From NCBI RefSeq assembly GCF_007671685.1, contig NZ_VCNL01000003.1, positions 222,131 to 286,130 of the forward strand: a DNA stretch of 64,000 nucleotides. Reading direction: 5' to 3'. Positions 3,250 to 54,593 of this stretch are shown here, in pieces. Source of the stretch: Halorubrum salsamenti. Lineage in GTDB: Archaea > Halobacteriota > Halobacteria > Halobacteriales > Haloferacaceae. The number at the start of each line of letters is the position of its first letter. Within the stretch, counting starts at the first letter, position 1. The notes below the pieces were generated by a model, which was given only the letters and a program-made list of their open reading frames with translations, was not told where the DNA came from and made no database searches. Position numbers and translations under genes: made by a program.

Positions 3250-5826
3250 TTACTCGTTCCGCCGCGTCGCGAGGAGCGCAGCCGCGATGAGGGCGACGAG
3301 CGCCACGATGGCACCGAAGCCGGGCGTCCCGTCGTCGGTTTCACCGTCTCCGCCGTCCTCACCGTCGGTCTCGTTGCCGTCCGTACCGTCTTCACCGTCT
3401 TCGCCGTCCTCGCCGTCTTCCGCTGCCTCGATGGTCAGCGTGCCGGTCTGCTCGTCGTCGTCGGTGGCAACGCCGTGCGTGTAGTCACCGGCGTCGAGTC
3501 CGGACGTGTCCGCGGTGAACTCGACCGTGGTGCTGTTACCGGCACCGAGTGTGACGTCCTGACTGTCGAGCTCGTCGCCGTCAAGCGTGAGCGCGACACT
3601 CTGGGTGCCTTCGCCGTTACCGGTGTTCTCGATCGTCGCCGACACGTCGACCGAGTCACCGGCGGTGGCGGTCGCCTCTTCGGGGCTCAGGTCCGAGACC
3701 TCGAAGGTCGCGGTTTCCTCGACACCCTCAACGAGGATGGCGTCCATTTCTTCGACGTTGGAGCTGCCGACGCGGAAGCGGATCGTTCCCTCGTCGTCGA
3801 CTTCACCCTCGGTCGTGTCGAGGCTCGCGTTGAACGTGCCGTCCTCGGCGATCTCCGCGTCGTCGTCCGTCAGGATGAATCCGGGGGAGACGTCAGACGC
3901 CGAGCGCAGGCGGACGCTCACGTCCGAGCCCGGGGCGACGTTCGTCGTGCCCGAGATGGACGCTTCTTCCCCGACGGGGACCTCGATCTGGTCGTCAGCG
4001 TTCTCGTTGTCGAAGGACGCCGAGCGCTCCTCCAGCGTGAAGGTAGCCTCCGCGGACGCGCTCGTCTCGGGCGCGAAGTACGGGAACGCGTCCTCGATCT
4101 CGCCGTCGTTGTAGTCGCCGCCGGCGGTAGCGAAGCTGTAGCGTTCGTCCTCGTCGGTCTCGTACTCGTAGGTGACTTCGAAGTCGTCACCGTCGGAGAC
4201 GGAGCCGTCGAACGTGTCGTCGTTGCTCGTGTCGGCGACCACGAAGAACTGACCGTCAGCGAAGTAGACGGTCGTCTCCGAGAAGTCGAGGTCGGCCGGG
4301 TCCTGGTTCGCAGTCGCCGACGTGGACTCGACCTCGAAGGTCACGCCTTCTTCATCGTTCTCGACGAGGTCGGTGAGGCCACTGCCGTCAACGCCCTCGT
4401 TGAGGTCGTTGAGGTTCGCACTGGTGGACTGCGCGACGAAGCCCTCGACACCGTCGGCTTCGACCTGGATGACCATGCGGTCGTCCAAGGCGATGTTCTC
4501 GCTCGCGGTGACATCCTCGAGGAGTTCCTCGACGTTGTCGGCTTCGTCAGTGTTGTCAGCCGGAGCCGTGTGGATCGTCACGCCGTCGATCGTCGGCTCG
4601 GTGAGGTCGAGCGTCGCGATGTCCTGCTCGTCGTCAACGGTGAGGTCTCCGTCTTCGTCGACGGCGAACACACCGTCACCGCTCGCGATCAGGTCGTATT
4701 CACCGGGCTGGGCCGGGCGAACCAGTTCGTCGTGCTCGAGTTGGTTCATCCGGAAGTCGGTAAGGTTATCGACCGGGTCACCGTCCTCGTCCTCGTACGA
4801 GGCGTCGGACGGGTTCCGGTCGACGATGTCGTCGTCCGACTGGTAGGCGTCACCGGACTGGTTGGTGCCGAGGACGCGCGTGTTGACCTGGAAGGTCACT
4901 TCGTCGTCGTCGTCGTCGTCTTCCACTTCGACGACGTCGAAGAAGCCGACGTCCTCGCCGCCGATGCTGACGAAGGTGCTGTCGGAGTCTTCGAGTTCGA
5001 CCGACACGTTGACGACATCACCGGCCGCAGCGGTGGTGATCGACTCGCCGAAGCTGGCCTCGATGTCTTCCTCTTCGAGCGTTACCGATGCGGTGTCTTC
5101 GGCTTCCGTGTCCGTCACTTCGGCCGTGAACTCGTACTCACCGGGATCGATGTCGGTGTTGCTGAAGTTGGCGATCAGCGCGTCGTCACGGAAGCCGCGA
5201 ACGATGATCTCGTCGTCATCTTCCGCGGCGTCCTGCGCGATGTCACCGACCGGATCGTTATCGGTGTCCGTTTCGAACAGCGCCTCAAGCTCGTCGTAGT
5301 CGAGGCCGTCAGCACTGACGTTCATGTTGTAGCTGTTCCGGCGGGACTCGACGTTGAGCTCGGCTTCCTCTTCGCCGGTGTCGTAGGTCGCCTCTTCCCA
5401 ATCGATGCTGATATCCTGAACACTCAGCTCGAAGGTGTTATCTCGAGTCTCGTCCAGTTCAGGCCCGCGGAGGTAGTAGTCGTTGGCCTCGAGACCACTC
5501 GTGTCGATCGTGAGGTTTCCATCACTATCCGTTTCGTACTCCGCCTCGAACGTACTTTCCGTGATGTCGTCACCGTCGAATTCATCTACCGACCGGAGCA
5601 CGTAGTTCGTGTCGTCGTTCAGCCCCGTGGCGGTAACGTCCTGTCCTTCATACACGATACCCGGATCCGTCTCTCCGTCGACGACAAAGTCGACGTCAGT
5701 GGGGTCGTTTCCTGGTGTTTGGGCGGCGGCAGCGCCGGCAAAGCCGACAGCAGCCATGGAAACAACCATAATCACGCTGAAGAAGACCGCACCGGCCTTC
5801 TTGCGTGTAGTATTGTCGTTTGTCAT
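3250..5826 (-). CDS. csg: S-layer glycoprotein with PGF-CTERM anchor
   Basis: Complete 858-residue major cell-surface glycoprotein. The ATG at 5826 (MTNDNTTRKKAG) was chosen over an upstream in-frame start because it opens a typical secretion signal ending GAAAAQ and matches the neighbouring paralogue. The mature part is a highly acidic beta-rich ectodomain with N-glycosylation sequons, followed by a low-complexity EDGEDG/TDGNETDG spacer at about residues 800-830. The extreme C-terminus reads TPGFGAIVALVALIAAALLATRRNE in two parts: the PGF motif, a hydrophobic helix, and an Arg-rich end. That is the PGF-CTERM signal processed by archaeosortase ArtA and lipid-anchored in known haloarchaea. Transcribed in the same direction as paralogue 1 and about 1 kb upstream of it, each with its own promoter. 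Confidence 0.95.
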   Translation of the reverse strand: MTNDNTTRKKAGAVFFSVIMVVSMAAVGFAGAAAAQTPGNDPTDVDFVVDGETDPGIVYEGQDVTATGLNDDTNYVLRSVDEFDGDDITESTFEAEYETDSDGNLTIDTSGLEANDYYLRGPELDETRDNTFELSVQDISIDWEEATYDTGEEEAELNVESRRNSYNMNVSADGLDYDELEALFETDTDNDPVGDIAQDAAEDDDEIIVRGFRDDALIANFSNTDIDPGEYEFTAEVTDTEAEDTASVTLEEEDIEASFGESITTAAAGDVVNVSVELEDSDSTFVSIGGEDVGFFDVVEVEDDDDDDEVTFQVNTRVLGTNQSGDAYQSDDDIVDRNPSDASYEDEDGDPVDNLTDFRMNQLEHDELVRPAQPGEYDLIASGDGVFAVDEDGDLTVDDEQDIATLDLTEPTIDGVTIHTAPADNTDEADNVEELLEDVTASENIALDDRMVIQVEADGVEGFVAQSTSANLNDLNEGVDGSGLTDLVENDEEGVTFEVESTSATANQDPADLDFSETTVYFADGQFFVVADTSNDDTFDGSVSDGDDFEVTYEYETDEDERYSFATAGGDYNDGEIEDAFPYFAPETSASAEATFTLEERSASFDNENADDQIEVPVGEEASISGTTNVAPGSDVSVRLRSASDVSPGFILTDDDAEIAEDGTFNASLDTTEGEVDDEGTIRFRVGSSNVEEMDAILVEGVEETATFEVSDLSPEEATATAGDSVDVSATIENTGNGEGTQSVALTLDGDELDSQDVTLGAGNSTTVEFTADTSGLDAGDYTHGVATDDDEQTGTLTIEAAEDGEDGEDGEDGTDGNETDGEDGGDGETDDGTPGFGAIVALVALIAAALLATRRNE

Positions 5827-9242: not shown

Positions 9243-9675
9243 AGGATAAGCCGCGCCGAGAGCCTGTTTTCGGATCGGGCTTGATGGGCGACGGAGCCGA
9301 CAGACCGCGACGATCGCTTATAAACGAACCGTGCGGTGGCGCGTGCCTTCGAGTGGCCGATAGGCCACGAGGAGCACGCGCGAGGGAATCGCTGGCGCCG
9401 TCGGCGCCAGCGACAGGGCGAGAGCGGAGCTCTCGCTTGCAACCGGACGCAGTCCGGTGACGAGGCTGGGGAGGCGTGAGGGGCGGGGCGGTGCTGTGCG
9501 GGGGGAGACTCAACGGGGCAGTCGCCGGCGGCTGTGCCGCCGGCTGCAAGCGAGCGCTTCGCCCTCGCGGCTGGGGCGTTGGAGGCGTTCACCGCCGATC
9601 CGCGATCAATCACTTATAAGCAACTAACCGAACCGCGAAACCGTCCGCTCTCAAGCCACAAATCGCACCCGTCTC
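9243..9675 (+). repeat. dispersed hairpin element, copy A (most complete)
   Basis: Non-coding 433 bp between convergent genes. Left end: gatcgcttataaacg (9313-9326). Block 2: gtggcgcgtgccttcgag (9336-9353). Block 3: gcacgcgcgagggaatcg (9374-9391). Block 4: tgacgaggctggggaggc (9459-9476), then gcggtgctgtgcgg and gagactcaacggggc (to 9519). Block 5: ggctggggcgttggagg (9569-9585), then ttcaccgc and cacttataag (9611-9620). Between the blocks lie strong hairpins: 9353-9368, 9390-9412, 9418-9436, 9443-9457 and 9524-9544. The same blocks occur near 29.3, 45.8 and 53.7 kb. No open frame is credible. Confidence 0.85.
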
Positions 9676-29165: not shown

Positions 29166-29427
29166 GTAGTGTGACGAACGGGTAGACCGGTGAATTTCGG
29201 TGTTCGTTTATAAATGGTTGATGCTGGTAGATCGGCGACGAGGACCTCCAAAGCCCCAGCCGTGAGGACGAAGCACGGCTGGGGCTTTGAGTCCCACCCC
29301 TCACAGCACCGCCGGAAGACGTTCCTGCTCGCTTCGCTGCGCGGGCTGCGACTTCCGTGCTCCCGCTCGCTCCCGTCGGTCGCTCGGCGGCACGCGCCGA
29401 CCGCAACAGCGACCGCAGCGAAACGGA
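29166..29427 (-). repeat. dispersed hairpin element, copy D
   Basis: 262 bp non-coding between convergent PiT and YgfZ-like genes, reading in the YgfZ direction. On the minus strand: block 2 tgcggtcggcgcgtgccgcc (complement of 29385-29404), a variable part, gcggtgctgtgaggggtg, gggactcaaa, then a near-perfect 15-bp stem (plus strand 29250-29264 and 29274-29288; aaagccccagccgtg / cacggctggggcttt) and a tail ending tttataaacg (29205-29214). The left half is less conserved than in copy A and begins directly at the upstream stop codon. Confidence 0.75.
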
Positions 29428-33058: not shown

Positions 33059-33134
33059 TGGGCCTTGCCGGATTTGAACCGGCGATCACTCCGTTATGAG
33101 CGGAGGGCTTTGAGCCAGACTAAGCTAAAGGCCC
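33059..33134 (-). tRNA. tRNA with CAT anticodon (Met elongator or Ile2)
   Basis: 76 nt, folds as a full cloverleaf: acceptor GGGCCTT/AAGGCCC with discriminator A (33059), D-arm GCTTAG.., anticodon stem CTCCG/CGGAG with loop CTCATAA, T-arm GCCGG-TTCAAAT-CCGGC. No intron and no encoded CCA. A CAT anticodon may be elongator Met or Ile2 whose C34 is agmatidinylated; the acceptor end is not that of an archaeal initiator (AGCGGG). Sequence alone does not settle which. Confidence 0.92.
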
Positions 33135-33273: not shown

Positions 33274-33383
33274 CGCCGAAGCCAGGACTCGAACCTGGGA
33301 CCGCCTCGTGACTGTGACGTTCGGGGGAGAAATCCGCCGAGCGTCGTAACAGCGAGGCGCTCTACCAACTGAGCTACTTCGGC
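33274..33383 (-). tRNA. tRNA-Asn(GTT) with a 37-nt intron
   Basis: 110 nt precursor, 73 nt mature. Acceptor GCCGAAG/CTTCGGC, discriminator G, anticodon stem CCTCG/CGAGG with spliced loop CTGTTAA (anticodon GTT), T-arm CCAGG-TTCGAGT-CCTGG. The intron (plus coordinates 33310-33346) sits at the canonical 37/38 site. It forms a perfect bulge-helix-bulge: CTGT pairs with ACAG, GACG pairs with CGTC, and three-base bulges TAC and TCA contain the cleavage sites. Confidence 0.93.
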
Positions 33384-45746: not shown

Positions 45747-45954
45747 ACGCAGACGAGTACTTGTAAGCAGATGTGCGGTCGGCGCGCGCCGCCGAGCGGC
45801 CTGATAAGGGGCGAGGTACACGCGCGAGGGAGTCGGAGCGACTCGACTGCGCCGTTCCGACGAGGCTGGGGCGTTGGAGACCTTCACCGCAGGGTCGTCG
45901 ATCGCTTATAAATAACCGAACGCAAAACCCCCCCGCATATCGACGGTGAAGCCG
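45747..45954 (+). repeat. dispersed hairpin element, copy B (short form)
   Basis: 208 bp between convergent ilvA and a zinc-ribbon gene. Left motif cgagtacttgtaagcag (45754-45770), block 2 tgcggtcggcgcgcgccgcc (45774-45793), block 3 cacgcgcgagggagtcg (45819-45835), hairpin gagtcg-gag-cgactc (45830-45844), then gacgaggctgggg fused directly to cgttggag..ttcaccgc (45859-45890) and right end cgatcgcttataaataacc (45899-45917). The middle present in copies A and C is missing, as if lost between two ggctgggg repeats. Confidence 0.85.
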
Positions 45955-52490: not shown

Positions 52491-53561
52491 ATGACCGACG
52501 ACATTGTCGAACACCGTCGACTGATCATCGCCGGCACCGGGATCGCGGGGCTCTCCGCGGGAATTTACGCCGCGCGCTCGAACAACGATCCCCTGCTCAT
52601 CGAGGGCGACGAGCCGGGCGGCCAGCTCACGCTCACCACCGACGTGGAGAACTATCCCGGCTTCCCCGAGGGGATCTCCGGGCCGGAGCTGATCAACGAC
52701 ATGAAAGCGCAGGCGACGAAGTTCGGCGCCGAGACCCGCAACGGGGTCATCGAGGACGTCTCCAAAGAGCCCGCGGGCCACTTCCGCGTCGAGCTCTCCG
52801 ACGGCGACGTGTACACCGCCGACGGCTTCATCGCCGCCTCTGGCGCCAGCGCCCGCACGCTCGGCGTCCCGGGCGAGGACGAGCTGATGGGGTACGGGCT
52901 CTCGACGTGCGCGACCTGCGACGGCGCGTTCTTCCGCGGCGAGGACATGCTCGTCGTCGGCGGCGGCGACGCCGCGATGGAAGAGGCGAACTTCCTGACG
53001 AAGTTCGCGGACACCGTCTACATCGCCCACCGCCGCGAGGAGTTCCGCGCCGAGGACGTGTGGATCGAGCGCACGATGGAGAAGGTGGAGGACGGCGAGA
53101 TCGAGCTCCTCCTCAACACCGAGCTCACCGAGATCCACGGCACCCCCGAGGACGGGATCGACCACGTCAGTCTGGTCGAACACCCGGACGGGCACCCGAA
53201 GGAGAAGCTCGATGACCCGGCGACCGCCGACGAGGTCGACGAGTACGACTTCGACGTGGGCGCCGTCTTCTTCGCCATCGGCCACACGCCGAACACGGAC
53301 TTCCTCGAGGGGACCGGGATCGAGACCGACGACGACGGCTACCTCATCACCGAGGGCGGCCGCGGCGGGAACCAGACCGCGACCGGCGTCGAGGGGCTGT
53401 TCGGCGCCGGCGACGTGGTCGACTTCCACTACCAGCAGGCGGCCACGGCCAGCGGGATGGGCGTGAAGGCCGCGCTCGACGTCGACGAGTACCTCACCGA
53501 GCGCGAGCGCGCCGGCGAGCTGTACGAGCCCGAAGTCGACGCGGCGGCCGCGGACGACTGA
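52491..53561 (+). CDS. trxB: thioredoxin reductase (NAD(P)H-dependent disulfide reductase)
   Basis: 356 residues. FAD motif LIIAGTGIAGLSAGIYAARS, redox site CATC at Cys140 and Cys143, NAD(P)H motif MLVVGGGDAAMEEANFL and FAD-contact GLFGAGDVVDFHYQQ. Two-domain low-molecular-weight type. The NADPH-binding basic residues (HRREEF) support NADPH use. A tacata-like TATA near 52461 sits 27 bp before ATG 52491, so leaderless. Supplies electrons to thioredoxins and possibly glutaredoxin. Confidence 0.93.
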   Translation: MTDDIVEHRRLIIAGTGIAGLSAGIYAARSNNDPLLIEGDEPGGQLTLTTDVENYPGFPEGISGPELINDMKAQATKFGAETRNGVIEDVSKEPAGHFRVELSDGDVYTADGFIAASGASARTLGVPGEDELMGYGLSTCATCDGAFFRGEDMLVVGGGDAAMEEANFLTKFADTVYIAHRREEFRAEDVWIERTMEKVEDGEIELLLNTELTEIHGTPEDGIDHVSLVEHPDGHPKEKLDDPATADEVDEYDFDVGAVFFAIGHTPNTDFLEGTGIETDDDGYLITEGGRGGNQTATGVEGLFGAGDVVDFHYQQAATASGMGVKAALDVDEYLTERERAGELYEPEVDAAAADD

Positions 53562-54125
53562 GCGGCGACCGAACGACGAGCGTCTTTTTAAGTAACCGCG
53601 CCGCGGCGGAGCCGCCGAGCGACGGCGATATCGACTGTTTATAAAGCGATCTGCCGTCGGCGCGCGCCTCCGAGCGGTCGCCACTGGCGACCGCGAGTAG
53701 TGAGGGACCGAAGGTCCCTCTGACAGCCGGCGGCGAAGCCGCCGGCGAGAGCGCGTGCGAGGGAGTCAGTCGTCCGGAGCGAAGCGGAGGACGGCTGACG
53801 AGGTTGGGGAGGTGTGAGGTGCGGTTGCTGTGCGGTGCGGGGTGGGACTCAAAGGGGCGGCCGGCGAGGCGGGCGCAGGTGACGTAAGCACTGCAGGGAG
53901 CGAGCAGCACGAGCGACCGAAGCGCGCAGCGAGCGTGCGTCCGCCTCGCCGGCTGGGGCTTTGACGGTGTTCCCTGTCGATCTGTCGTCAGGTACTTATA
54001 AGCGAGCGGCTGGGCTTTGGAAGTGTTCACCACGGGATCGCCGCGATCGTTGTAAGCAGCAACGAGGACGGTGCAAACGTTAATCGACGATCTGCGAACG
54101 GCTATTTATAAGCGGTCGACGACTC
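53562..54125 (+). repeat. dispersed hairpin element, copy C (compound)
   Basis: 564 bp between convergent trxB and the PPOX gene. Left end tcgactgtttataaagcg (53631-53648), block 2 gccgtcggcgcgcgcctcc (53653-53671), hairpins 53674-53694, 53704-53718 and 53726-53746, block 3 gcgtgcgagggagtcag (53753-53768), stem 53765-53798, block 4 tgacgaggttggggaggtg (53796-53814) and gggactcaaaggggc (53844-53858), long stem gccggcgaggcgg/ccgcctcgccggc (53860-53872/53940-53952), block 5 ggctggggctttg (53951-53963), right end acttataagcg. A second partial tail follows at 54008-54060 (ggctgggctttgg to gttgtaagcag) and a third tttataagcg at 54104-54113. Confidence 0.85.
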
Positions 54126-54593
54126 CTACTCATCGTCGCGGTCGACGACGACCGTACGGCCGGTGAGCCGCTCGGGCTCGAACCGGTACAGCTCGATGTC
54201 GAGGTCTTTCTTCCCGTCGGCCCAGATCTCGAACAGGGGCCGTTGCGTCTTGCCGTACTGCGCGATCGTCTCGGGCGTGAGGTCGTCGAGATCGACCCGA
54301 TGGAGGGCGCCGACGCCGACGACGCTCGCGTACTCCTCGCGGCTCCCCTCGCCGCCCTCCTCGTACACCACGATCCGGGCCTGCGGGTCGGACGCGAGGA
54401 ACTCTCGCTTCTCGCTGTCGGGCGTCGACACGAGCCGGAGGAAGGCGGTCCGCGACTCCTCGTCGAATCCGTACGAGATCGGGATCGCGTACGGGGTCTC
54501 GTCGCGCGCGAGGGACAGCACCCCGGTCTCGTGCCGGGACAGGAGCGCGTCGACCTCCGCGTCGGACATCTCGACCTCGCTTCTCGTCGCCAT
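54126..54593 (-). CDS. pyridoxamine 5'-phosphate oxidase-family flavoprotein
   Basis: 155 residues with the split-barrel fold: VDALLSRHETGVLSLARDETPYAIPISYGFDEESRTAFLRLV in two parts is the PPOX/HugZ-like FMN-binding start, followed by EEYASVVGVGALHRVDLDDL. Such proteins bind FMN, heme or F420. ATG 54593 (MATRSEVEMSDAEVD) was chosen. No pdxH-specific residues were identified, so vitamin B6 synthesis is not implied. Confidence 0.82.
   Translation of the reverse strand: MATRSEVEMSDAEVDALLSRHETGVLSLARDETPYAIPISYGFDEESRTAFLRLVSTPDSEKREFLASDPQARIVVYEEGGEGSREEYASVVGVGALHRVDLDDLTPETIAQYGKTQRPLFEIWADGKKDLDIELYRFEPERLTGRTVVVDRDDE

Follow-up and report, generated by a model that had tools for sequence, protein, structure and literature searches.

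Structured interspersed repeats in bacteria and haloarchaea

The BOX elements of Streptococcus pneumoniae are small, interspersed, structured repeats of modular build and variable length, which are enriched between convergent genes, turn over slowly, with many sites common to strains, and occur almost only in the pneumococcus and S. mitis, with relatives in S. suis (PMC3049150). The haloarchaeal element described here is likewise interspersed, chromosomal and modular, with extensive secondary structure, an enrichment in convergent gaps and a slow turnover; unlike BOX, it has a 433-bp unit with inverted-repeat ends, a covarying core (P1-P4) and a distribution over several haloarchaeal families, the two being compared by description and not by sequence. 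In Haloquadratum walsbyi, SMRs of about 80-110 bp have terminal inverted repeats unlike those of known transposons, are inserted in other mobile elements and are mobilised in an enigmatic way, with neither target duplication nor transposase, and one large plasmid is free of them (PMC3119063). The element shares with SMRs the haloarchaeal host, the inverted-repeat ends, the lack of target duplication and transposase and the absence, or near absence, from plasmids, but the Halorubrum unit is 433 bp long, intergenic and built around a conserved multi-stem core.

The MITEs ERIC, NEMIS/Correia and bcr1 are noncoding, intergenic, high-copy repeats with inverted-repeat ends and structured transcripts (PMC10969869, PMC3733652). 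The Halorubrum repeat resembles them in copy number, intergenic location, inverted-repeat ends and lack of coding capacity, whereas no parent insertion sequence or target duplication was seen for it. REP elements and PATEs are palindrome-rich extragenic repeats associated with Y1 transposases, PATEs being without terminal inverted repeats (PMC3733652, PMC3119063); the Halorubrum repeat is also palindrome-rich and extragenic, but has terminal inverted repeats and occurs in Y1-free genomes. Finally, the omega-RNAs (Rfam RF02656/RF02657) of IS200/IS605 are structured RNAs of haloarchaea, including Halorubrum lacusprofundi (PMC12558985). They share with the present element the tie between a structured RNA and mobile elements in haloarchaea, but differ in that the copies studied here have no Rfam match, copy A not even below the threshold, and do not need a Y1 transposase.

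A repeat family of Halorubrum chromosomes

The window, a 64,000-nt stretch of the Halorubrum salsamenti genome, contains four copies (A-D) of one interspersed repeat family of Halorubrum chromosomes. A covariance model (R1), for which an alignment of 38 copies was the input, counts 116 copies in the 3.67-Mb genome studied here; a relative with a single contig has 151, and two genomes of one genus in another family have 77 and 34. In a sample of 39 genomes searched by plain BLAST, a 291-nt query around copy A had matches in 23 of 23 genomes of the same genus and almost none outside it. Across the order, model matches were obtained in 97 of 243 genomes, the single weak ones possibly by chance, and several haloarchaeal genomes in this search had no match. 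Weaker versions of the family are present in other haloarchaeal families, and a block pattern scan had matches on contigs of Halorubrum, Haloparvum and Halorussus. Across the genus, each genome has between 6 and 117 copies of the exact block, compared with 0 matches for its reversed control in the same genomes, and a 28-nt block pattern gave two matches against 0 expected.

An Rfam search of the window returned two tRNAs only, with none of copies A-D above the gathering score and, below the threshold, only chance-level matches for copy A. In the open-access literature, subscription literature being outside the search, we found no paper describing the repeat, and the family is apparently undescribed so far. 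It provides haloarchaea with a very abundant structured repeat family, with more than 100 natural variants per genome, and would be an addition to Rfam and to the repeat annotation of a class of archaea.

Architecture of the element and of the copies in the window

From 5′ to 3′, the core consists of a TATA-like box, P1, P2, GAGGGA, P3, GAGGnTGGGGAGGnGTGAGG, a G-rich spacer, P4, a 3′ module and a second TATA-like box. P1 pairs GCGCGTGC with GCACGCGC, leaving one bulged C, and its GA...GA face each other in a GA/GA internal loop. P3 usually starts with GTC and ends with GAC, and the P4 region is organised as GGGACTCAAAG-GGG-CAG, P4 and CTG-GGG-CTTTG, with the GGG tracts facing each other. The 3′ module is short, hairpin-like and often present in tandem repeats, and optional extra hairpins are found within P2, after P3 or within P4.

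Copy A (9314-9625, plus strand) is a core-type copy that is bounded by its 5′ and 3′ TATA-like boxes, lacks terminal inverted repeats and is matched by R1 at 9331-9481 (73.7 bits). Its features, all on the plus strand, begin with the 5′ TATA-like box cttataaac (9317-9325), such a box lying at -21 to -17 from P1 in most copies. P1 (9339-9381, with GCGCGTGC at 9339-9346, GCACGCGC at 9374-9381 and the bulged C at 9347) encloses the P2 hairpin gtggcc-gata-ggccac (9353-9368) and is followed by the conserved block GAGGGA (9382-9387), whose columns are invariant in the 38-copy alignment, and by the P3 stem (9388-9414). Between P3 and block 3, copy A and some other copies have two extra hairpins (9418-9457), which in copy A lie at 9418-9436 and 9443-9457 and are insertions missing from many copies. 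Conserved block 3 (GACGAGGCTGGGGAGGCGTGAGG), located by pattern scans, spans 9459-9481, and P4 (9511-9581) comprises CAACG/CGTTG, the facing GGG tracts (9516-9518 and 9574-9576), CAG/CTG and an inner hairpin (9524-9544). The 3′ module (ggaggcgttcaccgccgatc..., 9582-9621) ends with the TATA-like cttataag.

Copy C (53636-54010, plus strand; model match 53652-53819) is also of the core type and lacks inverted-repeat ends; it has two extra hairpins in P2, a long P4 and, downstream, more 3′ modules, to about 54115. Copy D (29206-29340, minus strand) is 5′-truncated and retains only the 3′ half (spacer, P4, 3′ module and TATA-like box), with no model match to the 5′ core. In copy B (45774-45920, plus strand; model match 45774-45880), the 5′ core is fused to the 3′ module through a deletion at GGCTGGGG, a sequence common to block 3 and the 3′ module, which forms the joint. 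All five hairpins that the original prediction had placed in copy A were found in position, and the stems it had quoted for copies C and D exist in the sequence, D being read on the minus strand. The stem gagtcg-gag-cgactc, which it had aligned with those of the other copies, is by contrast not the P3 of the family; in copy B, a deletion derivative, the P3 equivalent is GTCGGA...TCCGAC.

Variants of the 3′ end were seen elsewhere. In a distant copy (L231, genome G227), a perfect 58-bp tandem array contains the 3′ module three times or more, and copies of genus g17 (L216, L221, L232 and L244) retain the 5′ core and block 3 but have another conserved end, ...cggcaatAGCTAGCTt, in place of the usual 3′ end.

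Pairing in the stems is preserved by evolution

It had been proposed that the stems differ between copies and yet pair at the same block positions. The 38-copy alignment was anchored on block 3, and pairing was itself the condition for placing P1; in it, 91% of the cells are paired, compared with 78% when partners are shuffled, and 114 cells carry a double change against 33 expected, a value reached in 0 of 500 shuffles; the pairing signal is lost when partners are slid along the alignment. We also applied an R-scape-like, tree-aware G-test made for this analysis (45 copies, with substitutions placed anew along the branches of a FastTree tree, and 40 null sets), in which 6 of 5460 column pairs were significant at E<0.05, all six inside the proposed helices (P1b 2, P2 1, P3 2 and P4 1). 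CAAAG/CTTTG is found 79 times and CGAAG/CTTCG 18 times, mixed forms being rare, and in some copies the otherwise fixed GTC/GAC is changed to GCC/GGC. In other genera, the same stems have 73 double-change cells against 21, in an alignment fitted to the model. The tree-aware test, the shuffle test and the set from other genera thus agree on selection for a structure, and the covariation is strong evidence that pairing is preserved by evolution.

The fold is backed by this covariation, beyond folding energy alone. By energy, copy A (264 nt) has a fold z of -5.6 and copy C (312 nt) of -4.5 relative to dinucleotide shuffles, whereas 200-nt control windows have a mean z of -0.8 in element-free intergenic sequence and -0.2 in coding sequence, so that matched intergenic sequence on average shows no comparable folding. 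However, a few of these windows do fold, which makes energy alone weak evidence, and the minus strand folds equally well; folding energy was therefore rejected as the sole proof of structure.

The plus strand folds on its own

In P3 and P4, G-U-type pairs on the plus strand outnumber A-C mismatches by 67 to 13 (p 6e-10), with 34:6 in P3 and 33:7 in P4. Loops had been predicted to be often G-N-A or similar; those of P2 are GNA in 26 cases and the complement TNC in 5 (p 2e-4). This wobble and loop asymmetry indicates that the plus strand folds on its own, as RNA or single-stranded DNA, and would not be expected of a duplex cruciform. The original prediction had read the covariation as selection on an RNA or cruciform structure; that reading is supported and becomes sharper, in that the asymmetry favours a single-strand fold of RNA (or single-stranded DNA) over a double-stranded cruciform.

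Full-length units and the probable spread of the family

The genome contains five copies of exactly 433 bp that share 98-99.8% identity; they are bounded by the inverted repeats CGGGAGT...ACTCCCG and lie at unrelated sites, with no target-site duplication visible at any of these five copies. The longest open frame of the unit has 106 codons, too short for a transposase. By a strict rule, the CGGGAGT...ACTCCCG ends are present on 10 of 217 copies, in several species; on the copies of other species their distance from P1 hardly varies, and genomes G014, G003 and G129 contain many full-length units. One site of the near-identical unit is occupied by a different copy in G003, which implies that gene conversion contributes, and gene conversion could mimic transposition. 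The 433-bp units appear to spread or homogenise like BOX, ERIC and SMR repeats.

Element sites also coincide with rearrangement breakpoints: locus C is a breakpoint in several species, and the two flanks of L189 lie apart in G003, each adjoining an element. The family would explain some genome rearrangement breakpoints.

The presence of more than 100 copies, the precise 433-bp units, the inverted-repeat ends, the covariation, the strand asymmetry, the bias towards convergent gaps and the lack of a long frame together point to a mobile repeat. We put at roughly 55% the probability that the family, a counterpart of BOX, ERIC and SMRs, is made up of transposase-free chromosomal repeats interspersed in haloarchaea, with a plus strand that would be folded, presumably as RNA. 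Such an RNA would be transcribed from the element or read through it, and its fold may be kept because the spread or persistence of the element requires it; an agent of spread is postulated, and a dedicated host function is not assumed. The family makes it possible to test if a selfish repeat maintains an RNA fold in order to spread. Against this reading stand several observations. No transposase-bearing insertion sequence with these ends and no autonomous partner was found in 1.7 Mb of locus sequence, plasmids and viral contigs, nor was a target-site duplication seen at the near-identical copies; the core is shared by different families, and locus A has the element in each of the 7 species compared, long-lived for a parasite; a mobile element would not usually be so scarce on plasmids; and the TATA-like box stands too near P1.

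No clean empty site was found at the compared loci. L115 was rejected as an empty site, as a remnant remains there, and the other absences lie in unrelated intergenic sequence. The gap at locus C (53561-54126) is a breakpoint: several relatives have its right-hand gene at another place, and in five of these the element beside the left gene has the opposite orientation.

Persistence at locus A and the possibility of a host RNA

At locus A, all seven of the seven species carry the element at the same site and in the same orientation, and yet the sequences of P2, P3 and P4 all differ among these orthologues; other orthologous sets show the same stem turnover at fixed sites. This turnover likely proceeds through exchange or homogenisation among copies together with compensatory point changes. 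In G014, the copy A orthologue (L248, 2834-4393) has about 1 kb extra just past the TATA-like box.

In three near-complete genomes, every exact block among the matches listed lies on the main contig, and in G182 this bias has a p of about 5e-4 to 2e-5, depending on the size assumed for the contig. A plasmid collection gave two matches, one of them in a convergent gap. Carriage by viruses or plasmids was rejected, with no credible match in phage and viral collections and only one or two plasmid copies.

This fixed position and orientation in seven species, the chromosome bias, the deep covariation, the invariant unpaired blocks and the facing GGG tracts would also suit multi-copy host non-coding RNA genes, whose unpaired conserved blocks bind a protein or a ligand or form a G-quadruplex to the benefit of the host. 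However, exact blocks range from 6 to 117 across one genus, many copies are truncated or fused (B and D among them), near-identical units with inverted-repeat ends are dispersed, and several genomes of the order have no match. Since the stems lie inside a high-copy, homogenising family bounded by inverted repeats, a conserved structure does not by itself imply an RNA gene of the host. The promoter spacing is likewise improper for P1: the TATA-like box lies about 17 nt upstream of P1, and an ordinary archaeal transcript starts about 26 nt downstream of its TATA box, so that the 5′ strand of P1 would be cut off. A promoter-driven RNA starting at P1 was therefore rejected, and we regard host RNA genes as unlikely. 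Full-length forms could use another TATA-like box, which a minority of the copies have about 34 nt farther upstream.

More speculatively, the core may be a functional RNA with interchangeable hairpin cassettes and four G-tracts (in block 3, at the spacer end and on both sides of P4) able to form a K+-stabilised G-quadruplex, which is either domesticated by the host or spreads in an RNA-dependent manner; we give this a low probability. If it were true, the family would be among the largest structured RNA locus families on an archaeal chromosome, with more than 100 loci per genome, and its G-quadruplex would be stabilised by the high-K+ cytoplasm.

RNA or DNA structure

A structure acting in DNA would consist either of single-stranded hairpins recognised by a Y1-type transposase (REP, PATE or IS200-like) or of cruciforms bound by a chromosome protein. 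GNA triloops and the GCGAAGC loop are very stable in DNA, and both are frequent here, the latter as a recurrent loop; the inverted-repeat ends and the coincidence with rearrangement breakpoints point in the same direction. However, no Y1 transposase (PF01797) was found in the element-rich genomes G002, G004 and G005, each with 30-48 BLAST matches to the element, and no reverse transcriptase in the 24 genomes searched, both of which weigh against a DNA-level role, while the wobble asymmetry argues against a duplex cruciform and leaves single-stranded DNA unaffected. Y1 transposase and reverse transcriptase were rejected as drivers, being absent where copies are plentiful, and we consider a DNA-level structure improbable. 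The lack of a reverse transcriptase, together with the Y1-free, element-rich genomes, favours RNA, which is thus the favoured, not proven, form of the folded plus strand over a cruciform.

Placement between convergent genes

All four copies in the window lie in convergent gene gaps. Among 150 copies, 72 are in convergent gaps (48%) and 17 in divergent ones, whereas the 290 element-free gaps include 17 convergent (6%) and 124 divergent ones (p 1e-24), these counts coming from a home-made gene caller and from a sample biased to intact blocks. Among copies in co-directional gaps, neither orientation prevails (31 to 30). Of the 16 copies examined in genus g17, only 3 are in convergent gaps and 8 in divergent ones (a small sample, with the same gene caller). 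In the pneumococcus, BOX, RUP and IS elements show the same convergent bias, which has been taken as tolerance of parasites or insertions. A gene-end device between convergent genes (a bidirectional terminator, an RNA-stability element or a supercoil insulator) would account for this placement, including that of the one plasmid copy, but is very doubtful and was rejected as a general rule, as half of the copies lie elsewhere, the bias is missing in genus g17 and repeats of the BOX type share it. Even spacing along the chromosome was also rejected, the spacing being random (CV 1.08 vs 0.99), as was a chromosomal strand bias, with 63 of 149 copies on the plus strand.

Elsewhere in the window, long direct repeats at 57-2211 and 3716-5819, 80-88% identical, represent a tandem duplication of a minus-strand gene, and two tRNAs lie on the minus strand at 33059-33134 and 33274-33383, the second of which spans 110 nt and probably contains an intron.
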